From assembly GCA_014730235.1 (NCBI GenBank), contig WJIO01000194.1:1-13582 (forward strand): a stretch of 13,582 nucleotides of DNA, read 5' to 3'. The notes beneath the pieces were generated by a model. It did no database searches. It had not been told where the DNA came from and was given only the letters and a program-made list of their open reading frames with translations. This document shows positions 1,481 through 13,247 of the stretch, one piece after another. The position numbers and the translations under genes were made by a program. The first letter of the stretch is position 1. Each line of letters starts with the position of its first letter. This DNA is from Candidatus Poribacteria bacterium (lineage in GTDB: Bacteria; Poribacteria; DTPJ01; WJIO01).

Positions 1481-4132
1481 TTACTCGTCCATTTTACCTT
1501 CTTCACGCAGTTTAGCATGAGCGGCTGCCAGTCTGGCAACAGGAACGCGGAATGGTGAGCAGCTGACGTAGTTAAGACCAACTCTGTGGCAGAAATCTAC
1601 CGTCTTGGGATCGCCGCCGTGCTCGCCGCAGATACCTACTTCCAGGTCATTAGTAGTTGAGCGACCTTTTTCCACAGCGATTCTGATGAGTTCGCCTACA
1701 CCCTTTTCATCAACAGTCATGAATGGGTTGACTTCCAGGATTCCGCCTTCGATGTAGTCCTGAAGGAATTTACCTTCTGCATCGTCGCGGCTCATACCGA
1801 AGGTTGTCTGAGTCAGGTCATTGGTTCCAAATGAGAAGAATTCAGCAAATTCGGCAATTTCATCAGCAGTCAGAGCAGCCCGGGGAAGCTCGATCATGGT
1901 TCCAACCATGTATTCAAGTTCAACACCGGCTTCTTCCAGAACTTCCTTGGCGACTCTGTCACATATTTCCTTCTGGAGTTCCAGCTCTCTTGCCTGACCT
2001 ACCAGAGGTATCATGATTTCCGGAATAACCTCTTTGCCCTTCTTGGCAACTTCAACAGCGGCTTCAATAATGGCCCTGGCCTGCATCTCGGTTATTTCAG
2101 GATAAGCGATACCTAAACGACAGCCACGATGTCCCAGCATGGGGTTAGCTTCGTGAAGGGATTCAATCTTGTCTTTCAGCTTTGCCAGGTCAATACCGAC
2201 CTCTTCAGCGAGTTCCTTAACTTCCTCTTCACTGTGTGGCAAAAACTCATGAAGCGGTGGGTCAAGGGTTCGGATAATGACCGGCAGGCCTTCCATAGCT
2301 TCAAATATTTCAATAAAGTCCTGTCTCTGCATAGGCAGAAGCTTTTCCAGGGCTTTTCTTCTATCTTCTTCGTTATTGGCAACTATCATCTCACGCATAG
2401 TGGTAATTCTGTCTTCTTCAAAGAACATGTGTTCTGTACGGCAAAGACCAATACCCTCAGCGCCGAATGAGCGAGCGCGTTTTGCACCGGCAGGAGTGTC
2501 GGTGTTGGTTCTGACGCCAAGTGTCCTGATCTCGTCTACCCATTCCATAAGTTCGCCGAAGTCGCCGCTCATGGTTGGTTCGATAAGCTCAACTTCACCC
2601 AGCATGACTTTACCAACGTGACCATCCAGACTGAGTACATCGCCTTCTTTGACAACAATATCCCCAGCGGTGAATTTTTTACCTGATTCATCTACGGTAA
2701 TATCACTACATCCAACAACACAGCATTTACCCATGTCACGACCAACGATAGCAGCATGGGATGTCATACCACCGGTAGCAGTAAGTATACCCTGAGATGC
2801 GTGCATGCCGCCAACATCTTCGGGAGAGGTGAAATTACGCACCAGGATGACTTTTTCGCCCAACTTAGCCATTTCCATAGCTGTTTCTGCGGTAAATACG
2901 GCTTTACCAACAGCAGCACCAGGGCCAGCCGGAAGACCTTCACCAATTACTTCAGCTTTGGATTTTGTGTTAACCATAGGGTGAAGCAATTGTTCGATCT
3001 TTTCAGCAGGAACACGAGAGACGGCTGTTTCTTTGTCTATCATGCCTTCTTTTACCATTTCAACGGCGATACGGACATCAGCCATAGCGGTTCTTTTACC
3101 ACGTCTGGTCTGAAGTAACCACAGTTTTCCTTGCTGAACGGTAAATTCCAGGTCCTGCATATCTTTGTAATGCTTTTCCAGCTTTTGTTCGATTTCACGA
3201 AGCTGATTATAAACTTCTGGCATAGCTTTCTGAAGTTCATCCACGTGGATAGGTGTTCTAATACCAGCAACAACGTCTTCGCCCTGGGCATTGAACAGAT
3301 AATCAGCGAAGAACTTGTTTTCACCTGTGGCCGGGTTACGGGTAAAGGCGACGCCTGTTCCTGAGTCATCACCCATGTTACCAAAGACCATAGTCTGAAC
3401 ATTAACAGCAGTAGAGCCTTCATCATCGCTAATACCGTTAATTCTTCTGTAGATAATAGCTCTTTCAGAATCACGGGAGCCAAATACGGCGTCTCTGGCC
3501 ATCAGTAACTGATCCATAGGATCCTGTGGGAATTCTTCACCCATTTCACGCTTGTATATTTCTTTATATTTTTCGATCAGTTTTTTCAGATCGTCAGCAT
3601 CCAGATCAGTGTCCAGTTCAACGCCTTTGTCTTTCTTCATCTCGGCTAAAGCGTCTTCAAAAAATTCAATGTCGACACCCATGGCCACGTCACTGAACAT
3701 CTGGATAAGTCTTCGATATGAATCATAAGCAAAACGAGGATTACCGGTCTTTTTTGCCAAGCCCTCAACTGTAACATCATTAAGACCGACGTTTAGTATG
3801 GTTTCCATCATACCGGGCATGGACATGGCAGCACCGGAACGAACAGAAAAAAGAAGAGGATCTTCAGGATCGCCAAATTTCATCCCCATTACTTCTTCTA
3901 CCTTGGCGATATTTTCTTTTATTTGCTCATCCAGGTCTTCGGGATATGTTTTATCATGGTCGTAATAATAACGACATACTTTAGTTGTAATTGTGAAGCC
4001 CGGTGGAACGGGGATACCGAGATTAGTCATCTCAGCCAGGTTAGCACCTTTGCCACCCAGCAGTTTTTTCATCTCGGCTTTTCCGTCTGCTTTACCGTCT
4101 CCAAAAAAGTATACATGCTTGTCTTGAGACAT
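1481..4132 (-). CDS. ppdK: Pyruvate, phosphate dikinase
   Basis: 883 residues, the usual length for bacterial PPDK, which reversibly converts pyruvate, ATP and phosphate to phosphoenolpyruvate, AMP and pyrophosphate in the cytoplasm. Order: N-terminal ATP-grasp nucleotide domain (about 1-340, with GGKGANLAEM near 26-35 and the SVRSGAAMSMPGMM segment near 96-109), the swivelling phosphohistidine domain with TGGMTSHAA and catalytic His459 (the preceding Thr457 matches the regulatory Thr of plant PPDK), and the C-terminal PEP/pyruvate TIM barrel with GICGEHGGDP and catalytic Cys835. All key motifs are intact. The ATG at 4132 has GGAGG about 6 bases upstream. It is transcribed from a good promoter at 4344-4372 through a structured leader of about 200 nt, and is followed without a gap by a binding lipoprotein. 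In anaerobes PPDK often works with pyrophosphate-linked glycolysis or gluconeogenesis. Confidence 0.98.
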   Translation of the reverse strand: MSQDKHVYFFGDGKADGKAEMKKLLGGKGANLAEMTNLGIPVPPGFTITTKVCRYYYDHDKTYPEDLDEQIKENIAKVEEVMGMKFGDPEDPLLFSVRSGAAMSMPGMMETILNVGLNDVTVEGLAKKTGNPRFAYDSYRRLIQMFSDVAMGVDIEFFEDALAEMKKDKGVELDTDLDADDLKKLIEKYKEIYKREMGEEFPQDPMDQLLMARDAVFGSRDSERAIIYRRINGISDDEGSTAVNVQTMVFGNMGDDSGTGVAFTRNPATGENKFFADYLFNAQGEDVVAGIRTPIHVDELQKAMPEVYNQLREIEQKLEKHYKDMQDLEFTVQQGKLWLLQTRRGKRTAMADVRIAVEMVKEGMIDKETAVSRVPAEKIEQLLHPMVNTKSKAEVIGEGLPAGPGAAVGKAVFTAETAMEMAKLGEKVILVRNFTSPEDVGGMHASQGILTATGGMTSHAAIVGRDMGKCCVVGCSDITVDESGKKFTAGDIVVKEGDVLSLDGHVGKVMLGEVELIEPTMSGDFGELMEWVDEIRTLGVRTNTDTPAGAKRARSFGAEGIGLCRTEHMFFEEDRITTMREMIVANNEEDRRKALEKLLPMQRQDFIEIFEAMEGLPVIIRTLDPPLHEFLPHSEEEVKELAEEVGIDLAKLKDKIESLHEANPMLGHRGCRLGIAYPEITEMQARAIIEAAVEVAKKGKEVIPEIMIPLVGQARELELQKEICDRVAKEVLEEAGVELEYMVGTMIELPRAALTADEIAEFAEFFSFGTNDLTQTTFGMSRDDAEGKFLQDYIEGGILEVNPFMTVDEKGVGELIRIAVEKGRSTTNDLEVGICGEHGGDPKTVDFCHRVGLNYVSCSPFRVPVARLAAAHAKLREEGKMDE

Positions 4133-4390: not shown

Positions 4391-4672
4391 AAGCATAAAT
4401 TTCTTGTCCGGATCCAAGCATAAAATTTATGTCCCTGTGTTATTGTGAAGAACGGTGTAACAAATAAAGTTTGGTTCTTCCGGGTTCAGTGTGTTAAAGA
4501 TAAGAAACTACTATATGCTGTCATTCCTGCGAAAGCAGGAATCCAGCATTTGTGCTGATGATTCCGGATTCCTGCTTTCGCAGGAATGACAGGCTGAGAG
4601 AATTTTCAAATTATTACCATACTCAAACTGGAAGAGCCAAAGTTTTCACGGACATAAAGTTTATGCTTGGAT
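4391..4672. repeat. Older inverted-repeat element interrupted by a MITE
   Basis: A 23-base arm at 4412-4434 (starting ATCCAAGCATAAA, ending TTTATGTCC) recurs inverted at 4650-4672 with one mismatch. A diverged direct copy of the AAGCATAAA...TTGTCC part lies at 4391-4409. The arms enclose a GG...CC-ended element (4473-4638); removing that element and one copy of its flanking AAAGTTT leaves the arms about 44 bases apart, so the outer palindrome is older. No coding potential; origin unknown. Confidence 0.6.
4473..4638. mobile_element. MITE-like element A, ISL3-type ends
   Basis: About 166 bp with no ORF. The ends are imperfect inverted repeats: GGTTCTTCCGGGTTCAGTG on the left, and GGCTCTTCCAGTTTGAGTA on the right read inwards. 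The GG(T/C)TCTT start is like ISL3-family insertion sequences. Inside is a long cruciform: TGTCATTCCTGCGAAAGCAG... at 4519 onwards answered by its inverse ending near 4592, with a small CAGCA/TGCTG hairpin at the centre. The direct repeat AAAGTTT abuts both ends (4466-4472 and 4639-4645), as a target duplication would. It lies inside an older inverted repeat. Confidence 0.7.
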
Positions 4673-4892
4673 TAAGACAAATTTAGTCATATTCAAATGA
4701 TCATATTATAGATATGCCACTAACCTCTGTAAATTATAACATATATTAATTTAAATTTCAACGGATTGGTTGAATAAAAATACATTAATAGATTTCCTTT
4801 GCCAGAAATTAACATTTTAATTGAAAATTCTCTCAGTTCGTCATTTCTGCGAAACTCTTATTCCCCTTTGCTCAAGCTTTTTGAAAAAGCTT
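4673..4892. other. AT-rich intergenic stretch with a MITE fragment
   Basis: No gene is seen. Bases 4823-4854 match, inverted, the right-hand interior of element A (GAAAATTCTCTCAG then a degenerate GTCATTTCTGCGAAA), so this is a broken copy. A 21-base perfect palindrome, CAAGCTTTTT, G, AAAAAGCTTG, occupies 4873-4893 and abuts the next element. It has no U-run after it, so I do not call it a terminator. Confidence 0.5.
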
Positions 4893-5041
4893 GGTTCTTC
4901 CGGGTTTAGTGTGGTAATGAAGAAAGATAACAAATTATACAAATTATAAAGGAAAAACCTACTTTTCATGTCATTCCTGCGAAAGCAGGAATGACAGCAT
5001 AAAGAAGTTTCTTATCTTTACCTCGCTAAACCCGAAAAACC
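4893..5041. mobile_element. MITE-like element B (rearranged copy with two left-type ends)
   Basis: Left end GGTTCTTCCGGGTTTAGTG. The right end read inwards is GGTTTTTCGGGTTTAGCG, then GGTAAAGATAAGAAAC as in the left interior of element A; both halves are thus of left type. The centre is a perfect hairpin, TGTCATTCCTGC / GAAA / GCAGGAATGACA, at 4969-4996. No flanking duplication is visible. With the nearby right-type fragment at 4823-4854 this suggests recombination between copies. Confidence 0.6.
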
Positions 5042-5054
5042 CTTTCTTTTTTAG

Positions 5055-5083: not shown

Positions 5084-5370
5084 ATTACGAAAGGGAATAA
5101 TAACATTTAATGCAATTATTTGCACATTTCTGGTTACTTTCATAAGAGTTGTACCGTCCAGACCTATTGCATGTGAATTCTCTTATACAGATATTATCAT
5201 CTGGACATCAATATTCGGCGTTGTCATAGCATTATTTTCCTATGGCGCATAACTCATGGAATTTACGGCAAAACACATATCCGGGGGCAGGTTTACATAT
5301 ACGTTTCGGCCCTGATTCAAATGCCACTTCTGCCAAACCTCCAGCAGAAGACAAGCATCCCTAAAAAGCT
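5084..5370 (+). other. Leader/intergenic region upstream of the histidine kinase
   Basis: No convincing gene. A 65-codon frame from TTG 5055 to 5252 ends in a hydrophobic stretch (DIIIWTSIFGVVIALFSYGA), but its start codon is the -35 box. A 40-codon frame, ATG 5242 to TAA 5364, ends 6 bases before the kinase ATG and is in the same reading frame as the kinase, with a hydrophilic tail (ATSAKPPAEDKHP). Neither has a good ribosome site; they could be remnants, a short leader peptide or chance. No -24/-12 promoter was found here. Confidence 0.3.
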
Positions 5371-8300
5371 ATGGAAGAATATGCTGAAAAAAAAGAAAAA
5401 TATATGGTAGTTTTAAGGGGATTTTTGGTTCTCCTGGCTATTTATTTGACTGGTTTTTATAATTATTTGTTATTTCACAGTCTGGCTGAATTATTCAGTA
5501 TTGTTGTGGCCTTCAGTATTTTTACTCTGGCTTATAATTCCAGGAGATTTATTGACAATAATTACCTGCTTTTTATGGGACTTGCTTCCTTTTTTATTGC
5601 AATACTGGACATGCTGCATACTCTCAGTTACAAGGGTATGGGAGTATTTCCGGGATTCACTGCAAATCTACCTACCCAGTTATGGATCATGGCCCGTTAC
5701 ATGGGCGGTATATCTTTCCTTATCGCCCCACTTATGCTGAAAAGAAAACTAAATATCGGACTTATTCTCATTATTTACTCAGCAGCTTTATCTCTGCTAC
5801 TTCTATCATTGTTTTACTGGCGTATATTTCCTGATTGTTATATAGAAGGCTCAGGATTGACGCCCTTTAAGATAGTAAGTGAATATATTATATCTTTGCT
5901 TTTATTAATCTCTGTAATATTATTATACTTAAAACGCAGGGAATTCGAAACCGGTATATTCTATCTTCTTTCAGCTTCTATTATTGTTACAATTGCTTCA
6001 GAATTAGCTTTTACTTTATATATAAGCGTTTACGGCTTTTCTAATATGCTGGGCCATTTGTTTAAGATAGTAGCATTTTACCTGCTATACAGAGCATTAG
6101 TGCAAACAGGACTGGTCAAACCTTATCTCCTATTGTTCAGAAACCTCAAAAACAGTCAGGAAATCCTTAAGCTAGAGCGGGATAAAGCCCAAAAATATCT
6201 GGAAGTTGCAGGCGTTATTATAATTTCAATTGCTCCGGATAAAAAAGTAACCACAATAAACCGTAAAGGCTGTGAAATATTGGGATATCCAAAGGAGGAT
6301 ATTATAGGCAAAAACTGGTTTCAGAATTTTCTACCGGAGAATGTACGGGATGAAGTAGAAAATGTATTCGAACAGTTGATAAAGGGAAAGACAGATATTT
6401 ATGAACACTACGACAGCCGTATAGTAAATAAAGATGGCGAAGAGAGGATAATATCATGGAATAATACTGTCCTTACCAATGAAGATGGTAAAATACTGGG
6501 AACATTAAGCTCTGGTGAGGATGTAACCGAAAATATAATTATGGAGGAAAACCTTCAATGGGAACTAATGGTAAATACAGCCATAGCAGACCTGGCAAAC
6601 GAATTAATTAACCCTTCATCTACAATAGAAAATATTACAAACAAAGTTTTAGAACATGCAAGAAAAGTAACAGAAAGCGAACACGGATATGTATCTTCTA
6701 TCGATCCCACCACTGGAAATAATGTTAGAATTGCTATAACAGACTTTTCAGGAAATAGTTTTTTAATACCAGACAAGAATAATAACATTGTATTTTCTGC
6801 TGATAAAAACGGTAAATATCCGGGTTTAAGGGGATATTCTCTTAACTCCCGCAAACCCTTCTACACAAATTCACCTCAGAACCATAAAGTGTATAAAGGT
6901 GTTCCCGAAGGACATATCCTCATAAAGAATTTTTTATCAACTCCTGCTGTAGTTGGGGATCAACTTATGGGACAGATAACCCTGGCTAACTCCAAAAGAG
7001 ATTACACAGAACAGGATATTAAAGCTGTAAAACGAATGGCTGATATATATGCTCTGGCTGTCCAGAACATGAGAGCTGAACAGGCTTTGAGAAAAGCACT
7101 GCAAATATCACAACAAAGGGAAGCTGAAAGTTCGGCTTTACTCGAAGGTTCTCGGGCAGTTCTTGAGTACCGGGATTTTAAAAGCGCAGCCAGTTCCTTG
7201 TTTGAATATTGTAAAAATATTGTAGGGGCTACAGCCGGGTGCATTGCATTGCTTTACAATAAAGGTCAGGAATATGATATTCTATATACGGACAACGGAA
7301 ATTTATCATGCAATGAAAACTCGGATGATCAAATACCCATAATGGAGTTGCGTCATAAAGTTTACAAAACCCGTAAAGCCATTTATTCTAACCGTATTTC
7401 CGTATCCGGAGATCGTTCCATAACTATAGAAAACGTTTTGTTTGCACCTATGATAATTGGAAAAGAAATGGTAGGATTGCTGGGACTTGCTGACAAGCCC
7501 GGTGGTTTTAATGAAAAAGACACATGGCTAGCGTCTCTGTTTGCTGAATTTGCCGCTATCGCTCTACATAACAGCCGAACTCTGGAATCTCTGGAACGAA
7601 GTGAACAAAGATTTAGATCTGTAATTCAGACCGCAAGTGATGCTATAATTGCATTTGACAGCGATTTTAAAGTAGTCTTCTGGAGTGAAAGCGCAGAAAA
7701 TCTTTTTGGTTATCCCTCCGAAGAATCTGAGGGATTATCTGTATTGGAAATAATTCCTGAAAAATTCCTGAACATATGCAAAAACGAGCTACCCCAGGTT
7801 AAAAAGACAGGAGAAACAAATAATACATTTGAAGTGACGGCTATGCGAAAAGATGGAATAGAAGTACCAGTAGAAATTTCCCTTACTTCCTGGTCTGCCA
7901 GGAATGAATTATTTTACACTGCCATAGCAAGAGATATAACAGATCGTAAAGAAGCGCAAGCCAAAAAAGCCGTAGAGCACGAAGCAGAACGTCAAAGGGT
8001 ATTGAGTATGCGTTCAGACAGATTACGTTCTCTTGGTGAAATGGCTGCCGGTATTGCTCATGAACTCAATCAACCTCTGGTGGGAGTCAGGGGAATGGCC
8101 GAACACCTGGTTATAAGCATTGAAAGGGACTGGGAACTGACAGATGAGAAAATTCGCGATCGGGCATCAACCATAGTGGAACAGGCAGACAGAATGGTTC
8201 ATATTATTGACCATATCCGGGTTTTTGCCAGAGAAGCAGGAAAACCAGAGGTAAAAGCTATAAAAGTCAACCAAATAGTCAGAGCAAGTATGGGGCTTTT

Positions 8301-8736
8301 GAAAACCCAGTTTCGTTCCAGAGGTATTCAACTGGAAAGCAATTTATCCGAAGGTCTACCTGAGGTTATGGCGAATCCATATTCCCTGGAAGAAGTGGTT
8401 ATTAATCTTCTTATCAACGCCCGGGATGCCGTAGAAGAATTGATGAACGAAGGTTCAGTCACCACTACCCCAAAAGTAACACTAAACACTACAGAAAAAT
8501 ACACGGGCAGCAAAACATTTGTTAGCATAGAAGTTACAGACACAGGAACAGGTATCCCAAAAAATATAATTGAAAAAGTTTTTGATCCCTTTTTCACCAC
8601 CAAAGGCCCGGATCGCGGGACAGGCCTGGGTCTTTCCATATCCAAGACTATTGTGGAAGAATTTGCAGGTAAGCTAGAAATTAAATCCGAGCCTGGAAAC
8701 GGAACTACAGTAACAATAATGCTGTCAGTTCTTTAA
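5371..8736 (+). CDS. Membrane sensor histidine kinase, MASE3-PAS-GAF-GAF-PAS-HisKA-HATPase
   Basis: 1121 residues. Residues about 15-250 are a multi-helix membrane module of MASE3 type (HSLAELFSIVVAFSIF, ILDMLHTLSYKGMGVFPG, NLPTQLWIMARYM). Then PAS1 (275-388, ending SGEDVTEN), GAF1 (about 408-570), GAF2 (about 590-735), PAS2 (about 744-862, ending ARDITDRKEA), a short coiled coil, HisKA with phospho-acceptor His897 in GIAHELNQPL, and HATPase_c with N-box Asn1016 (NLLINARDA), G1 DTGTGIP (1057-1063), F-box FDPFFTTK (1071-1078) and G2 GTGLGL (1083-1088). All catalytic boxes are intact. There is no large periplasmic domain, so sensing is likely within the membrane or by cytoplasmic PAS/GAF ligands. 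Only 22 bp separates it from the NtrC-type regulator, its obvious partner. The SD before ATG 5371 is weak; Met12 is an alternative start. Confidence 0.95.
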   Translation: MEEYAEKKEKYMVVLRGFLVLLAIYLTGFYNYLLFHSLAELFSIVVAFSIFTLAYNSRRFIDNNYLLFMGLASFFIAILDMLHTLSYKGMGVFPGFTANLPTQLWIMARYMGGISFLIAPLMLKRKLNIGLILIIYSAALSLLLLSLFYWRIFPDCYIEGSGLTPFKIVSEYIISLLLLISVILLYLKRREFETGIFYLLSASIIVTIASELAFTLYISVYGFSNMLGHLFKIVAFYLLYRALVQTGLVKPYLLLFRNLKNSQEILKLERDKAQKYLEVAGVIIISIAPDKKVTTINRKGCEILGYPKEDIIGKNWFQNFLPENVRDEVENVFEQLIKGKTDIYEHYDSRIVNKDGEERIISWNNTVLTNEDGKILGTLSSGEDVTENIIMEENLQWELMVNTAIADLANELINPSSTIENITNKVLEHARKVTESEHGYVSSIDPTTGNNVRIAITDFSGNSFLIPDKNNNIVFSADKNGKYPGLRGYSLNSRKPFYTNSPQNHKVYKGVPEGHILIKNFLSTPAVVGDQLMGQITLANSKRDYTEQDIKAVKRMADIYALAVQNMRAEQALRKALQISQQREAESSALLEGSRAVLEYRDFKSAASSLFEYCKNIVGATAGCIALLYNKGQEYDILYTDNGNLSCNENSDDQIPIMELRHKVYKTRKAIYSNRISVSGDRSITIENVLFAPMIIGKEMVGLLGLADKPGGFNEKDTWLASLFAEFAAIALHNSRTLESLERSEQRFRSVIQTASDAIIAFDSDFKVVFWSESAENLFGYPSEESEGLSVLEIIPEKFLNICKNELPQVKKTGETNNTFEVTAMRKDGIEVPVEISLTSWSARNELFYTAIARDITDRKEAQAKKAVEHEAERQRVLSMRSDRLRSLGEMAAGIAHELNQPLVGVRGMAEHLVISIERDWELTDEKIRDRASTIVEQADRMVHIIDHIRVFAREAGKPEVKAIKVNQIVRASMGLLKTQFRSRGIQLESNLSEGLPEVMANPYSLEEVVINLLINARDAVEELMNEGSVTTTPKVTLNTTEKYTGSKTFVSIEVTDTGTGIPKNIIEKVFDPFFTTKGPDRGTGLGLSISKTIVEEFAGKLEIKSEPGNGTTVTIMLSVL

Positions 8737-8758: not shown

Positions 8759-10132
8759 ATGATGGCAAAAGCACTAAGAATTCTTATAGCCGACGACGAA
8801 CAAATTGTCCATCAAACTATATCTGCGTATCTGTCTGATTTAGGTCATAATGTTGATGGTGTCTATGATGGAATAAGTGCCATCAGCGCTTTTAAAGAAA
8901 AAGAATATGATCTGGCCTTTGTAGACATAAGAATGCCGGGTATGACAGGTCTTTCTGTAATGGCTCAGATGAAGCAAATTAAACCTGATATGGCTGTAGT
9001 AATTATTACAGGTCATGGCAATATGGATTCCGCTATTCAATCCCTGCGGTTAGGTGCATTGGATTTTCTGACAAAACCAGTAAAGCTGCTTGAACTGGAT
9101 GTGATTATCGAAAGACTTAATCAAATACGGGCTCTTCAGAAAGAAGAAAAACACCTTCGGGATACTATAAGGGGAATACAGGCATCTGAAGAAATTAGAG
9201 ACAGGAATCGCCAATTTATAGGAAAAAGCAAGGCAGCAAAAGAAATAAGACAAAAGATAAGTCAAGCCGTTGAAGCAAATTGCGATACAATACTAATCAC
9301 AGGAGAAACTGGAACAGGAAAAGAGGTAGTAGCGAGGGAAATACATTTCCTTGCAAGCCCTGAAGACCAGCCCTTTATTGCTGTAAGCTGTCCAGCATTA
9401 CCCGAATCCCTGGTAGAAAGTGAGCTTTTCGGTCATATAAAAGGTGCTTTTACTGGAGCAACTTCAGAACGCGCTGGTTACTTTGAACTCGCAAACGGAG
9501 GAACACTGTTTCTGGATGAAATCGCCGATCTATCAAAATCAACCCAGGCAACAATGCTCAGGGTGTTAGAGACAAGAACCCTTCGCCGTATAGGTGGTTC
9601 AGATGAAATAAAAGTCAATCTGAGGATCATTGCAGCTACCAATACATCCCTTAAGGAATTAACGGAAGGAAATAAATTTCGCTCAGATTTATTTTACAGA
9701 CTTGACGTTTTCTCAATATATATACCCCCGTTAAAAGAACGCCGGGAAGATATTATACCACTGGCTCAACACTTTTTGACCAATTATACATCTCAACGAA
9801 AGCTGGAATTTAAGGGGTTTACTGATAATGCCTGCGAAACTTTATTGAATTATGACTACCCGGGTAATGCCCGAGAACTGCGCAACATAGTGGAAAGAGC
9901 CGCCATAATAGCCCGTTCTGGGTGGATAAGCCCGGAGCATATGAATATGCCTGTAAAAACCAAAAATAAAAATTCTTCTTATAAATCGGATAATTACGAG
10001 GGAAAGCACGAACATGAACAAATACTTAAGGCTCTGGATGAAGCAAAATGGAATCGCCGGGAAGCCGCAAAAATCCTTGATATGCCTTATTCAACACTCA
10101 GATATAAAATGCAGAAGTTTGGTATTTCATAA
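8759..10132 (+). CDS. NtrC-family sigma-54-dependent response regulator (REC-AAA+-Fis HTH)
   Basis: 457 residues. The receiver domain (6-120) has Asp12/13, phosphoacceptor Asp56 (FVDIRMPG), Thr84 and Lys106. The AAA+ sigma-54 interaction domain (about 153-395) has Walker A GETGTGKE (182-189), an intact GAFTGA loop (229-234, required to contact sigma-54), Walker B LFLDEIAD (250-257) and YPGNARELRN (367-376). The C-terminal Fis-type helix-turn-helix (about 417-457) has EAAKILDMPYSTLRYKM. It hydrolyses ATP to open sigma-54 promoters. The double ATG at 8759 and 8762 follows AAAGGA by 5 or 8 bases; either may be used. It is co-transcribed with the kinase. Just downstream lie tandem palindromes and a -24/-12 promoter, so the next gene is a likely direct target (inference). 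Confidence 0.97.
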   Translation: MMAKALRILIADDEQIVHQTISAYLSDLGHNVDGVYDGISAISAFKEKEYDLAFVDIRMPGMTGLSVMAQMKQIKPDMAVVIITGHGNMDSAIQSLRLGALDFLTKPVKLLELDVIIERLNQIRALQKEEKHLRDTIRGIQASEEIRDRNRQFIGKSKAAKEIRQKISQAVEANCDTILITGETGTGKEVVAREIHFLASPEDQPFIAVSCPALPESLVESELFGHIKGAFTGATSERAGYFELANGGTLFLDEIADLSKSTQATMLRVLETRTLRRIGGSDEIKVNLRIIAATNTSLKELTEGNKFRSDLFYRLDVFSIYIPPLKERREDIIPLAQHFLTNYTSQRKLEFKGFTDNACETLLNYDYPGNARELRNIVERAAIIARSGWISPEHMNMPVKTKNKNSSYKSDNYEGKHEHEQILKALDEAKWNRREAAKILDMPYSTLRYKMQKFGIS

Positions 10133-10160
10133 ACTTCACCTAATCCAATTATCCTGCCTC

Positions 10161-10190
10161 TTAGCAACATTTGCTAGCAACATTTGCTAA
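10161..10190. promoter_or_regulatory. Tandem palindromic upstream activating sequence (candidate NtrC-type regulator site)
   Basis: Two copies of the perfect palindrome TAGCAACATTTGCTA (arms TAGCAA/TTGCTA, centre CAT) at 10162-10176 and 10175-10189, sharing two bases, so TTGCTAGCAA at the junction is palindromic too. The sites centre about 120-135 bp upstream of the predicted start of the -24/-12 promoter downstream, the usual place for enhancers of NtrC-family proteins. The adjacent Fis-HTH regulator is the natural candidate to bind; this is inference. Confidence 0.65.
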
Positions 10191-10278
10191 AAACCTATCA
10201 AAAACAAAAAAAACTCAGATTAGCATACCCTCAATTATATTCTTTATATATAAGACTTTACGGCCTTTTTCGGTCTTT

Positions 10279-10294
10279 TGGCATCAGCTTTGCT
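10279..10294 (+). promoter_or_regulatory. rpoN-dependent promoter: Sigma-54 (-24/-12) promoter
   Basis: TGGCAT, five bases, TTGCT (10279-10294), with GG (10280-10281) and GC (10292-10293) exactly ten bases apart as sigma-54 requires. It differs from TGGCAC-N5-TTGCA/T at a single position. Transcription should start near 10305, about 40 bases before the receiver-only gene. An enhancer-like palindrome pair lies upstream. Confidence 0.75.
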
Positions 10295-10346
10295 ATTTTC
10301 CTTGTTTGAAGGATTATTAATAATCTAATAAATGAGGAATTATAAT

Positions 10347-10817
10347 ATGAAATCTTCTTTACGTATACTCATAGCTGATGACCAGCCTATAGTAAATAAA
10401 ACACTTATAAGCTATATTAAAGATCTTGATCATCAGGTTGATAAGGCTTATGACGCTGCCACTGCTTTAGAAATTATTAAATCCAATAAATACGATTTAA
10501 CCATAATCGATTTACATATACCAGGAGCAAAAGGCCTTTCCATAATCGGCAAAATTCAACAACTAAAACCTGAAATGCCGATTGTAGTGATAACCTGTAA
10601 TGGCAATATAAACATGGCTGTAGAATCCCTACGTCTGGGAGCGACAGATTTTCTAACCAAACCTATCAGAATGCTGGAATTGGAGGGGGTTTTAATTAAA
10701 TCAGCAAGACTTAGCAAGCTTCATTCTCAGCAGACACAAAACATAAAAAAACTGGAAAATGAATGTGATGCATTAAAAGCAAGAATAAGTAAACTTACAA
10801 TGCAGCTTAAAAAATAA
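10347..10817 (+). CDS. Stand-alone receiver-domain protein with C-terminal coiled coil
   Basis: 156 residues from ATG 10347, preferred to the ATG at 10332 because GAGGA (10334-10338) sits 8 bases before 10347. The whole protein is one receiver domain (5-115) with Asp11/12, phosphoacceptor Asp55 (IIDLHIPG), Thr83 and Lys105 all present, then a heptad-like helix (about 118-153). It is about half identical by eye to the receiver of the neighbouring NtrC-type regulator (shared RILIADD, ESLRLGA.DFLTKP), but lacks the AAA+ and DNA-binding domains, so it is a truncated paralogue. It may be a phosphate sink for the same kinase, a competitor/dimerisation partner of the regulator, or a switch acting on the downstream sigma factor; these are hypotheses. 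It lies behind a -24/-12 promoter. Confidence 0.92.
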   Translation: MKSSLRILIADDQPIVNKTLISYIKDLDHQVDKAYDAATALEIIKSNKYDLTIIDLHIPGAKGLSIIGKIQQLKPEMPIVVITCNGNINMAVESLRLGATDFLTKPIRMLELEGVLIKSARLSKLHSQQTQNIKKLENECDALKARISKLTMQLKK

Positions 10818-10964: not shown

Positions 10965-11085
10965 GGTTCTTCCGGGTTTAGTGTAGTAAAGATAAGAACA
11001 TTCTTTATGCTGTCATTACTGCGAAAGCAGGAATGACAAGCTGAGAAAATTTTCAAATTATTACCACACTCAAGCCGAAAGAGCC
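10965..11085. mobile_element. MITE-like element C, ISL3-type ends, in the 5' region of the ECF sigma gene
   Basis: 121 bp. The left end GGTTCTTCCGGGTTTAGTG and right end (inwards) GGCTCTTTCGGCTTGAGTG match element A, as do the interiors (AGTAAAGATAAGAAC and AGAAAATTTTCAAATTATTACC). The central hairpin TGTCATTACTGC / GAAA / GCAGGAATGACA has one mismatch. The flanks AATTATTA (10957-10964) and AACTATTA (11086-11093) match at 7 of 8 bases, as expected for the 8-bp duplication made by ISL3-family elements. It ends 25 bases before the sigma-factor ATG, so a stable hairpin sits in that leader. Confidence 0.75.
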
Positions 11086-11110: not shown

Positions 11111-11674
11111 ATGCAAATAGTACATGCAGAAAATATTACCACAAACAGGATGCAGGAATTTGAACTGGTAGCCCTTAAACATATAGATTCACTTCACAGA
11201 ACAGCCCTTTATATGTCCGGTAATGAAGATGATGCACTGGATCTGGTACAGGATACATACTTAAGGGCATACAGATTCTTTGACAAATTTCAGACTGGCA
11301 CTAACTGTAAAGCCTGGTTACTTACTATCCTGAGAAATACTTTTATGAATTCTATAAGACGGAAAAAACGCAAGCTACAAACAATTCATTTATCTGAGAT
11401 GGAAGAATATGGCTCAGAAATATCCGATGAATCAACGCCTGAAGATGACTTACTTAAAGACAAATTCGATGATGATCTAACAGCGGCTATTGAATCACTT
11501 CCAGCCGTATACAAAAAGGTAGTTTTGATGTCGGATCTTCAGGGATTATCCTACAAAGAAATAGCCGATTCAGTAGGATGTCCCATTGGTACTGTAATGT
11601 CCAGATTGAGCAGGGGCAGAGGATTGCTCAGAAAACGGCTGAAAAAATACGCTGTTCAAAATGGCTATATATAA
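11111..11674 (+). CDS. ECF-type RNA polymerase sigma factor (sigma-70 family)
   Basis: 187 residues, only regions 2 and 4 as in ECF sigma factors. Region 2 (about 15-85) has DALDLVQDTYLRAYRFFDKF and TNCKAWLLTILRNTFMN; region 4 (about 122-175) has LPAVYKKVVLMSDLQGLSYK and a helix-turn-helix in IADSVGCPIGTVMSRLSRGR. The GTNCKAWL and CPIGTVMSRL wording resembles the SigR/ECF12-like branch. GGAGA lies 8 bases before ATG 11111; Met14 is a possible shorter start. No anti-sigma factor gene is adjacent: the next gene, 73-79 bp on, encodes a CmpX-like membrane protein. That recalls the sigX-cmpX neighbourhood of Pseudomonas (from memory). A mobile element separates this gene from the receiver gene. 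Confidence 0.95.
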   Translation: MQIVHAENITTNRMQEFELVALKHIDSLHRTALYMSGNEDDALDLVQDTYLRAYRFFDKFQTGTNCKAWLLTILRNTFMNSIRRKKRKLQTIHLSEMEEYGSEISDESTPEDDLLKDKFDDDLTAAIESLPAVYKKVVLMSDLQGLSYKEIADSVGCPIGTVMSRLSRGRGLLRKRLKKYAVQNGYI

Positions 11675-11676
11675 AG

Positions 11677-11684
11677 AAGGAGGG
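11677..11684 (+). other. Orphan Shine-Dalgarno-like sequence after the ECF gene
   Basis: AAGGAGGG begins 2 bases after the sigma-factor stop but no ATG/GTG and open frame follows at a useful distance; the next gene has its own AGGAG (11741-11745). It may be a relic of a lost small gene (for example an anti-sigma factor) or chance. Confidence 0.3.
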
Positions 11685-11753
11685 ATAAAAAGCCTAATTA
11701 TTTGTATTATATTCAATTGGTAGTTTTTCATTATTAAAAGAGGAGATATGAAA

Positions 11754-13247
11754 ATGGAGAGTATTTGGAATCAAATTTCTCAAGCTTTTCAAACCTACGC
11801 ACCAAGTATTCTGGCAGCATTAGTCATTTTGATACTTGGATGGTTTTTTGCTTTGATTATTGCTGCTATAGTGCGCGGTGGTCTTCGCAAAACCGGTTTG
11901 GGACGAAAATTAGCAGACGCTCTTGGTGACAGCGTTCAAGCTCCGGGAGTAGAAAGAAAAATTGGAAAGATCACATATTATATTGTGATGATACTGGTGC
12001 TGGTGGCTTTCTTCCAGGTATTAGGATTAACACTGGTAACAGGCCCTCTTAACAGCCTGCTAAATCAGGTCTTTGAATATTTGCCCAAAGTAGTAGGTGC
12101 AGCGGCTTTACTGCTTATCGCATGGGTGGTAGCCACAATCCTCAGGCTGATAATAAATAAATCCTTGGAAGCCCTGAAGCTTGATGAACGAGTTGGCAGT
12201 CGTTTTGGGGCGGAAGAAGAAGAAAAAATAGTCCCACTGGCAAACACCATAGCCGATGCAGTATACTGGATAATCTTTCTGGTATTTTTACCCTCGGTAT
12301 TGGGTGCTTTGGGGTTGACTGGACTTTTGGTACCTGTGCAGGGGATGATTGACAAGGTTCTTACTTATCTGCCTAACATACTGATGGCAGCTGTTATAAT
12401 AGTTATAGGATGGTTCCTGGCCAGAATAATCCGACAGATAGTAACAAAACTGCTGTCCGCTGTTGGGGCTGACCAATTGGGAGAACGCATCGGCATGAGC
12501 AAAGTTCTGGGGGATCAAGGACTTTCCAGCGTAACAGGTATGGTAGTATATGTACTCATACTGATTCCGGTTTTACTCGCTGCATTAAATGCTCTGCAAC
12601 TGGATGCCATAACCCAACCCACCAGTAATATGCTTAATATTATACTATCAGCCATTCCTTCCATATTTGCAGCGGCTATTGTTTTGATTATAGCCTACAT
12701 GATAGGCAAGGTAGTTGCTGGATTGATTGCAAATCTGCTCTCCAGCGTAGGATTTGATAGATTGATGGCAAAGATAGGTATAGGTGGGAGCACTGAAGAA
12801 GGAAAATCGGCCTCGGCTGTGGTTGGAACGTTGGTTCTTGTCGCTATAATGCTGTTCGCTGCCATTGAAGCGGCAGGCATGCTGGGTTTCACTGCCCTGG
12901 TAGATATGGCATCGGATTTCATGGTACTTGCAGGACACGTTACCCTTGGATTGATAATATTCGGGATAGGTCTTTACCTGGCAAGTTTGGCAGCCAAAAC
13001 AATTCGCGCAAGCGGCACGAGTCAGGCAAATTTCCTTGCCGGTATCGCCCGAGTTGCAATATTAATGCTAGTAGGTGCTATCGCTTTAAGACAGATGGGA
13101 CTTGCTAACGAGATCATAAGCATTGCATTCGGCCTGCTTCTGGGTGCTATAGCAATTGCTGTAGCTATTGCTTTTGGCGTTGGCGGCCGCGACATTGCAG
13201 CTAAGAAGCTAAAAGAATGGACTGAAGCAATAGAAGCCGAAGATTAA
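11754..13247 (+). CDS. CmpX-like mechanosensitive-channel family protein with repeated conserved TM helices
   Basis: 497 residues from ATG 11754, chosen because AGGAG (11741-11745) is 8 bases upstream; the ATG at 11748 is only 2 bases from it. The protein is almost wholly hydrophobic and built from repeats of about 95 residues. Each starts with a conserved helix like YLPK.V.AA.LL.IAW (about 11-58, 105-152, 203-250, 295-343; helices 17-35, 111-130, 209-228, 304-322) followed by an amphipathic stretch with a GL/VG...R pattern, then a second helix. The last part (about 389-480) ends in FGLLLGAIAIAVAIAFGVGG, which resembles the glycine/alanine-rich pore helix of MscS channels. This is the 'conserved TM helix' family (PF05552-type), of which Pseudomonas CmpX is a member. 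It likely senses membrane tension or envelope state. It shares a transcript with the ECF sigma gene and ends at a strong terminator. Confidence 0.88.
   Translation: MESIWNQISQAFQTYAPSILAALVILILGWFFALIIAAIVRGGLRKTGLGRKLADALGDSVQAPGVERKIGKITYYIVMILVLVAFFQVLGLTLVTGPLNSLLNQVFEYLPKVVGAAALLLIAWVVATILRLIINKSLEALKLDERVGSRFGAEEEEKIVPLANTIADAVYWIIFLVFLPSVLGALGLTGLLVPVQGMIDKVLTYLPNILMAAVIIVIGWFLARIIRQIVTKLLSAVGADQLGERIGMSKVLGDQGLSSVTGMVVYVLILIPVLLAALNALQLDAITQPTSNMLNIILSAIPSIFAAAIVLIIAYMIGKVVAGLIANLLSSVGFDRLMAKIGIGGSTEEGKSASAVVGTLVLVAIMLFAAIEAAGMLGFTALVDMASDFMVLAGHVTLGLIIFGIGLYLASLAAKTIRASGTSQANFLAGIARVAILMLVGAIALRQMGLANEIISIAFGLLLGAIAIAVAIAFGVGGRDIAAKKLKEWTEAIEAED

Follow-up and report, generated by a model that had tools for sequence, protein, structure and literature searches.

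A putative sigma-54 enhancer-promoter module suggests a built-in feedback circuit between an NtrC-type activator and a copy of its own receiver in an uncultured bacterium

An NtrC-type response regulator (RR) located beside a gene for a receiver-only protein (RO), with a pair of stacked palindromes and a sigma-54 promoter between them, suggests that an uncultured bacterium has a feedback circuit built into this locus. The genes lie in a 13,582-nt stretch of DNA (the window) from the 5.53-Mb draft genome of a Candidatus Poribacteria bacterium, where a sensor kinase, the activator, the putative enhancer, the promoter and RO all fall within 5.5 kb (Table 1). The regulatory part of this reading, in which RR would act at the stacked palindromes to activate RO by way of sigma-54 polymerase, is well supported by sequence comparisons, and we consider it very likely. 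The feedback part is plausible, and the whole reading, in which RR activates RO and RO feeds back on the kinase/RR pair, is judged on present sequence data to be probable, though by no means assured.

Table 1. Features of the kinase-RR-RO locus (window coordinates)
Feature	Coordinates	Strand	Remarks
Sensor histidine kinase	5371..8736	+	MASE3, PAS, GAF, PAS, HisKA, HATPase_c; Pfam MASE3 8.2e-91
RR, NtrC-type response regulator	8762..10132	+	Pfam Response_reg, Sigma54_activat, HTH_8
Putative enhancer palindrome 1, TAGCAACATTTGCTA	10162..10176	.	Start 116 bp before start of the -24/-12 17-mer
Putative enhancer palindrome 2, TAGCAACATTTGCTA	10175..10189	.	Start 103 bp before start of the -24/-12 17-mer
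Sigma-54 -24/-12 promoter, TTGGCATCAGCTTTGCT	10278..10294	+	Consensus match, GG-N10-GC exact
Ribosome-binding site, GAGGA inside ATGAGGAA	10333..10338	+	Read from sequence
RO, receiver-only protein, 156 aa	10347..10817	+	Pfam Response_reg 8.3e-27

RR consists of a receiver, a sigma-54 AAA+ domain and a Fis-type helix-turn-helix (HTH) whose recognition helix is PYSTLRYKMQKF, which is the architecture of the NtrC family. The intact GAFTGA and the Fis-type HTH that the original prediction had assigned to the upstream regulator were thus confirmed by Pfam domains and by sequence. The kinase encoded immediately before RR is its likely partner.

The predicted TGGCAT-N5-TTGCT promoter with exact GG-N10-GC geometry was found as described and is near-consensus, with a score of 15.6 out of 16.1 on a simple scale of agreement with the consensus that was devised for this analysis. 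The pattern TTGGCAYN5TTGCW occurs 11 times in the draft genome versus 0 in the reversed control, and most of these strong promoters, including that of RO, are located 50-100 bp upstream of a plausible gene start. The genome also encodes RpoN (Sigma54_DBD, E 1e-60). From the position of the promoter, the RO transcript would be expected to start near 10305. A ribosome site and the receiver-only gene follow, also as predicted, with a corrected start codon: the ATG at 10347, which has GAGGA about 8 nt upstream, is most likely used rather than the in-frame ATG at 10332. A sigma-70-like match at 10317-10346 was rejected, as it runs up to the start codon and is no better than expected by chance. No terminator was found between RR and RO, a weak GGCC/GGTC hairpin at 10262-10275 being not above shuffles.

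Downstream of RO are genes encoding an ECF sigma factor and then a mechanosensitive-channel-like protein with four conserved-helix repeats (window 11111-13247), which are probably a separate unit from RO. A repeat family resembling a miniature mobile element, with ends GGTTCTTCCGGGTTTAGTGTR...CAARCCGGAAGAGCCA flanking a TGTCATTCCTGCGAAAGCAGGAATGACA hairpin, is found at window 4473-4640, 4891-5046 and 10966-11085, the last copy being located between RO and the ECF sigma factor gene.

The palindromes had been described as two perfect overlapping ones. Two copies are indeed present and overlap, by 2 bp; they are not gapless, since each is a 6-bp inverted repeat around a 3-bp non-palindromic center (TAGCAA-CAT-TTGCTA). 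Their centers are 13 bp apart, the pair spans 10162-10189, and the overlap also generates a central TTGCTAGCAA. When the sequence between the two genes (10133-10346) was shuffled 5000 times with its dinucleotides preserved, two or more such N3 inverted repeats arose in 0.04% of the shuffles and the exact 13-bp tandem in none. A scan of the draft genome, which the original prediction had proposed, found the exact TAGCAANNNTTGCTA at the window only, where base composition predicts about 0.6 occurrences in the genome. One-mismatch palindromes elsewhere in the genome numbered 20, versus 11 in the reversed control, and among these the one at locus L105 alone is followed, at the right distance, by a good -24/-12 site. 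Another one-mismatch palindrome (L054) was considered as a candidate target and rejected, as it sits inside a coding gene.

The module as a whole was also searched for, as the pattern GCAAN3TTGC-N74-104-TGGN8TTGC, in 84 genomes of the phylum. In the genome of the window, the pattern matched the two window palindromes and one intergenic place, which was again L105 (minus strand; contig C314:6100-9100), and a spacing-shift control with N9 instead of N8 matched none of these three sites. L105 has a one-mismatch palindrome, CAGCAAAATTTGCTA, 101 bp before TTGGTATATCATTTGCA, upstream of a gene for a Rieske/FAD-dependent oxidoreductase. It is a single palindrome and lies about 200 bp from its gene; from its sequence, it is a second candidate target of RR. 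Because the module core alone gives about one match per genome across the phylum by chance, weight was placed on the full motif, its stacking, the spacing and the neighboring regulator.

All of these were found together in a genome from another family of the phylum (G035), at a locus designated L041. This 12.9-kb locus had already been selected for its RR homologue, separately from the module search that matched there (L041:2522-2672). L041 carries the exact TAGCAATAGTTGCTA twice (at 2522 and 2541) and a third copy with two mismatches (at 2555), followed by a -24/-12-like TTGGTATGTTAATTGCC; base composition predicts 0.3 exact copies in all of G035, and two were seen within 35 bp. The three palindromes start 101, 115 and 134 bp ahead of the start of the promoter, comparable to 103 and 116 bp in the window and 101 bp at L105. 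The palindromes are located 3.4 kb from the gene for the closest homologue of the AAA+/Fis-HTH part of RR, a protein 57% identical to RR over residues 144-456, which is the closest AAA+/HTH match in the phylum outside the window's own genome. Its recognition helix, PYSTFRSKMKKL, is close to that of RR, and among about 50 enhancer-binding proteins the frame PYST[LF]R.KM was found only in RR, in this protein and in an RR orthologue from another phylum (PYSTLRYKMKNF, locus L033, see below). The homologue in L041 has no receiver domain and no neighboring kinase. That the motif recurs in a second genome, near the protein most similar to RR in its AAA+/HTH part, supports the neighboring regulator as the activator, and it strongly suggests that RR binds the stacked palindromes.

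It is also conceivable that another regulator, either a different NtrC-type protein or a repressor, binds the palindromes, and that the adjacency of RR is incidental. The genome has at least 28 NtrC-type matches, and the core of the palindrome is not unique to one regulator, because several other genomes of the phylum carry related TGCAA-N3-TTGCA-like elements (e.g. GTGCAAATTTTGCAC) 90-108 bp upstream of strong -24/-12 sites (L146, L148, L152 and L162), where they are probably the enhancer of another NtrC-type regulator. However, the full TAGCAA-N3-TTGCTA recurs beside the one homologue in G035 that shares the recognition-helix frame with RR, and no palindrome within one mismatch was found at any of the approximately 45 other enhancer-binding-protein loci examined. 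We therefore regard a different regulator as improbable, and RR as the protein expected to act at these sites.

The original prediction had further proposed that the unusually tight spacing of the palindromes might reflect slippage duplication. That idea is weakened by the 14- and 19-bp center-to-center spacings in L041, an independent locus. Since the copies in that other genome are stacked too, around TAG instead of CAT as the central triplet, the tight stacking looks selected rather than accidental, whatever its origin.

Several other features of L041 were observed. The -24/-12-like site behind its palindromes lies ahead of a small reading frame (2840-3105) whose product would be a Cys-rich, secreted-looking peptide and in which the GTG that follows the ribosome site is directly followed by TAA. 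A near-copy of this promoter segment, without palindromes, is located at 5137-5263, before the gene for another small secreted-looking protein. The AAA+/HTH homologue (L041:5997-6968, minus strand) has GAFTDA in place of GAFTGA. With the same substitution of aspartate for glycine, NorR is freed from repression by its regulatory domain (PMC2941729).

A receiver is the only Pfam domain of RO, which has no output domain, lacking both an AAA+ and a DNA-binding domain. Its receiver is 46.6% identical to that of RR and 48% identical to that of the RR orthologue in L033; these two receivers were its best matches in the two genomes (1e-37 and 1e-40, respectively), the next being at 1e-21. In a tree of 59 receivers, RO was placed in a clade with both (support 98/82), nested in a larger clade with a receiver from L038 and with that of an RR paralogue from the same genome as the window, L040 (99/93). 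The sequence data show that RO is a duplicate of a receiver from the family of RR, and its description as a truncated paralogue of the RR receiver is borne out by this clade. RO as the direct sister of RR had support of 93/36, so the duplication may predate the split between RR and its orthologue in L033.

The acidic pair D11/D12, the phospho-acceptor D55, T83 and K105 are all conserved in RO, which also has two Cys. AlphaFold2 confidently modeled RO as a receiver (mean pLDDT 90.9) with a final helix that is unbroken over residues 109-155, i.e. 47 residues, and has a coiled-coil-like, heptad-like pattern recognized by eye (I..L...C..L...I..L...L). The best structural and sequence matches were NtrX, RssB and NtrC1, with a resemblance also to Spo0F, and the predicted helix resembles the receiver plus linker of NtrC-family proteins and RssB.

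Could RO simply be a decaying, truncated duplicate that retains an ancestral promoter and has no present function? It has diverged to 47% identity from RR, and no genome searched contains an orthologue of it. At that divergence, an idle duplicate would be expected to have lost its frame, active site and promoter, whereas the RO frame is open, its active site is intact, its ribosome site is good, its fold is confidently predicted, its C-terminal helix is newly shaped, and its promoter and enhancer are near-perfect. Decay thus appears very improbable.

The main rival to a feedback role is that RO is an output protein, a CheY/Spo0F-like messenger that is induced by RR, is phosphorylated by the neighboring kinase or another kinase, and acts on a target elsewhere. 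The retention of every residue of the receiver active site is consistent with this, as is the resemblance of RO to Spo0F and to the RssB receiver with its long helix, proteins that relay or adapt signals. On the other hand, no candidate target adjoins RO, the next gene being that for the ECF sigma factor beyond a repeat-rich gap, and RO is most closely related to the receiver of RR and to that of the RR orthologue, which predicts that RO meets the same kinase. A messenger role is accordingly considered unlikely, though far from negligible.

For the preferred reading, the following circuit is proposed. The kinase would phosphorylate RR, which would bind the stacked TAGCAA-N3-TTGCTA palindromes. 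By looping, the AAA+ ring of RR would reach the sigma-54 RNA polymerase bound at the -24/-12 site and switch on RO. RO would then damp the system by taking phosphate from the kinase or by blocking it. Alternatively, and not exclusively, RO might pair with RR through their shared receiver/linker surface. The net outcome would be a delayed negative feedback loop on the kinase/RR pair. We infer the feedback action of RO on this pair, with damping as its most likely direction. A more specific form, in which the coiled-coil tail of RO would pair with the activator and RO, as a dominant-negative subunit, would feed back by preventing the ring from assembling, is a doubtful proposal; no description of such dominant-negative control of NtrC-family activators by a receiver copy was found in the literature searched.

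The 84 phylum genomes searched include, besides the window's own, none from its genus or family, and no orthologue of RO was found in them or in plasmids. The only other locus found with an orthologous kinase-regulator pair was L033, from Candidatus Magnetocorallium paracelense (Nitrospirota); when 176 and 395 additional genomes were searched for relatives of RR, none but this one was closer than 43%. The kinase core is 53% identical to that of the kinase preceding the L033 regulator, from which it appears that kinase and regulator moved jointly between phyla, with the sensor part changing. The original prediction had looked to orthologous loci for conservation of the palindrome and the -24/-12 box and would have counted the absence of both against the module, and this one orthologous locus has neither, no palindrome being found there within 2 mismatches. 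The L033 genome has no RO orthologue either, beyond the match to the RR receiver, and because the RO gene is missing too, this result bears on the age and spread of the module rather than on the module in the window. The full-length RR paralogue in the window's own genome (57% identity; L040:5044-6453) differs from RR in its recognition helix, which is SYSKLRYRLRKY, and a search of its locus allowing one mismatch found no palindrome. Among the loci examined for this, no other pair of an NtrC-type protein and a receiver-only protein was found except in the window.

If the proposed circuit is correct, it would be a compact and portable one, in which a feedback element was made by copying the input domain of the activator itself, and the stacked TAGCAA-N3-TTGCTA could be assigned as the motif of an NtrC-type subfamily in an uncultured lineage. 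It would also extend feedback of the FixT/Osp type to sigma-54 activators, with a phosphorylatable decoy.

In the literature on receiver-only proteins and sigma-54 autoregulation, nothing closer than FixT and Osp was found. FixT of Caulobacter crescentus and Sinorhizobium meliloti is a single receiver-type protein whose expression is induced by its own two-component system, FixL-FixJ, and which acts as a feedback inhibitor of that system's kinase (PMC7078487; PMC9430884). FixT has no acidic pair and does not become phosphorylated (PMC9430884), and Caulobacter FixT has a 4-Cys Fe-S motif (PMC7078487). In RO, by contrast, the acidic pair is retained along with D55, T83 and K105, and there are two Cys; its gene is located behind a sigma-54 promoter, and the protein is derived from a receiver of the neighboring regulator's family. 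Osp of Rhodobacter sphaeroides is a receiver-only protein of the CckA-ChpT-CtrA pathway, and its gene is activated by CtrA, the response regulator of the pathway that Osp inhibits; Osp acts on a hybrid kinase, has no acidic pair and is not phosphorylated (PMC9430884). The RO gene is instead behind a putative sigma-54 enhancer module. RO shares with both proteins the single receiver without an output domain and, because it keeps the acidic pair, is not classed as one of them, so that its mechanism need not be theirs. By analogy, RO may work like FixT or Osp at the level of the circuit.

The putative enhancer resembles the LuxO sites at the qrr promoters of Vibrionaceae, where the NtrC-family activator LuxO has two TTGCA-WWW-TGCAA sites ahead of a sigma-54 promoter (PMC10162802): the short inverted repeat with a 3-bp center and its presence in two copies are shared, and RR, as the probable activator, is also of the NtrC family. 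It differs in its half-site (TAGCAA/TTGCTA), in the stacking of its copies and in its target, which is a protein gene rather than a small RNA. Finally, in NtrC1 and DctD the receiver is followed by a long coiled-coil linker helix that holds an inactive dimer (PMC2941729). RO is likewise predicted to be a receiver with a long helix but, unlike these proteins, stops after the helix.
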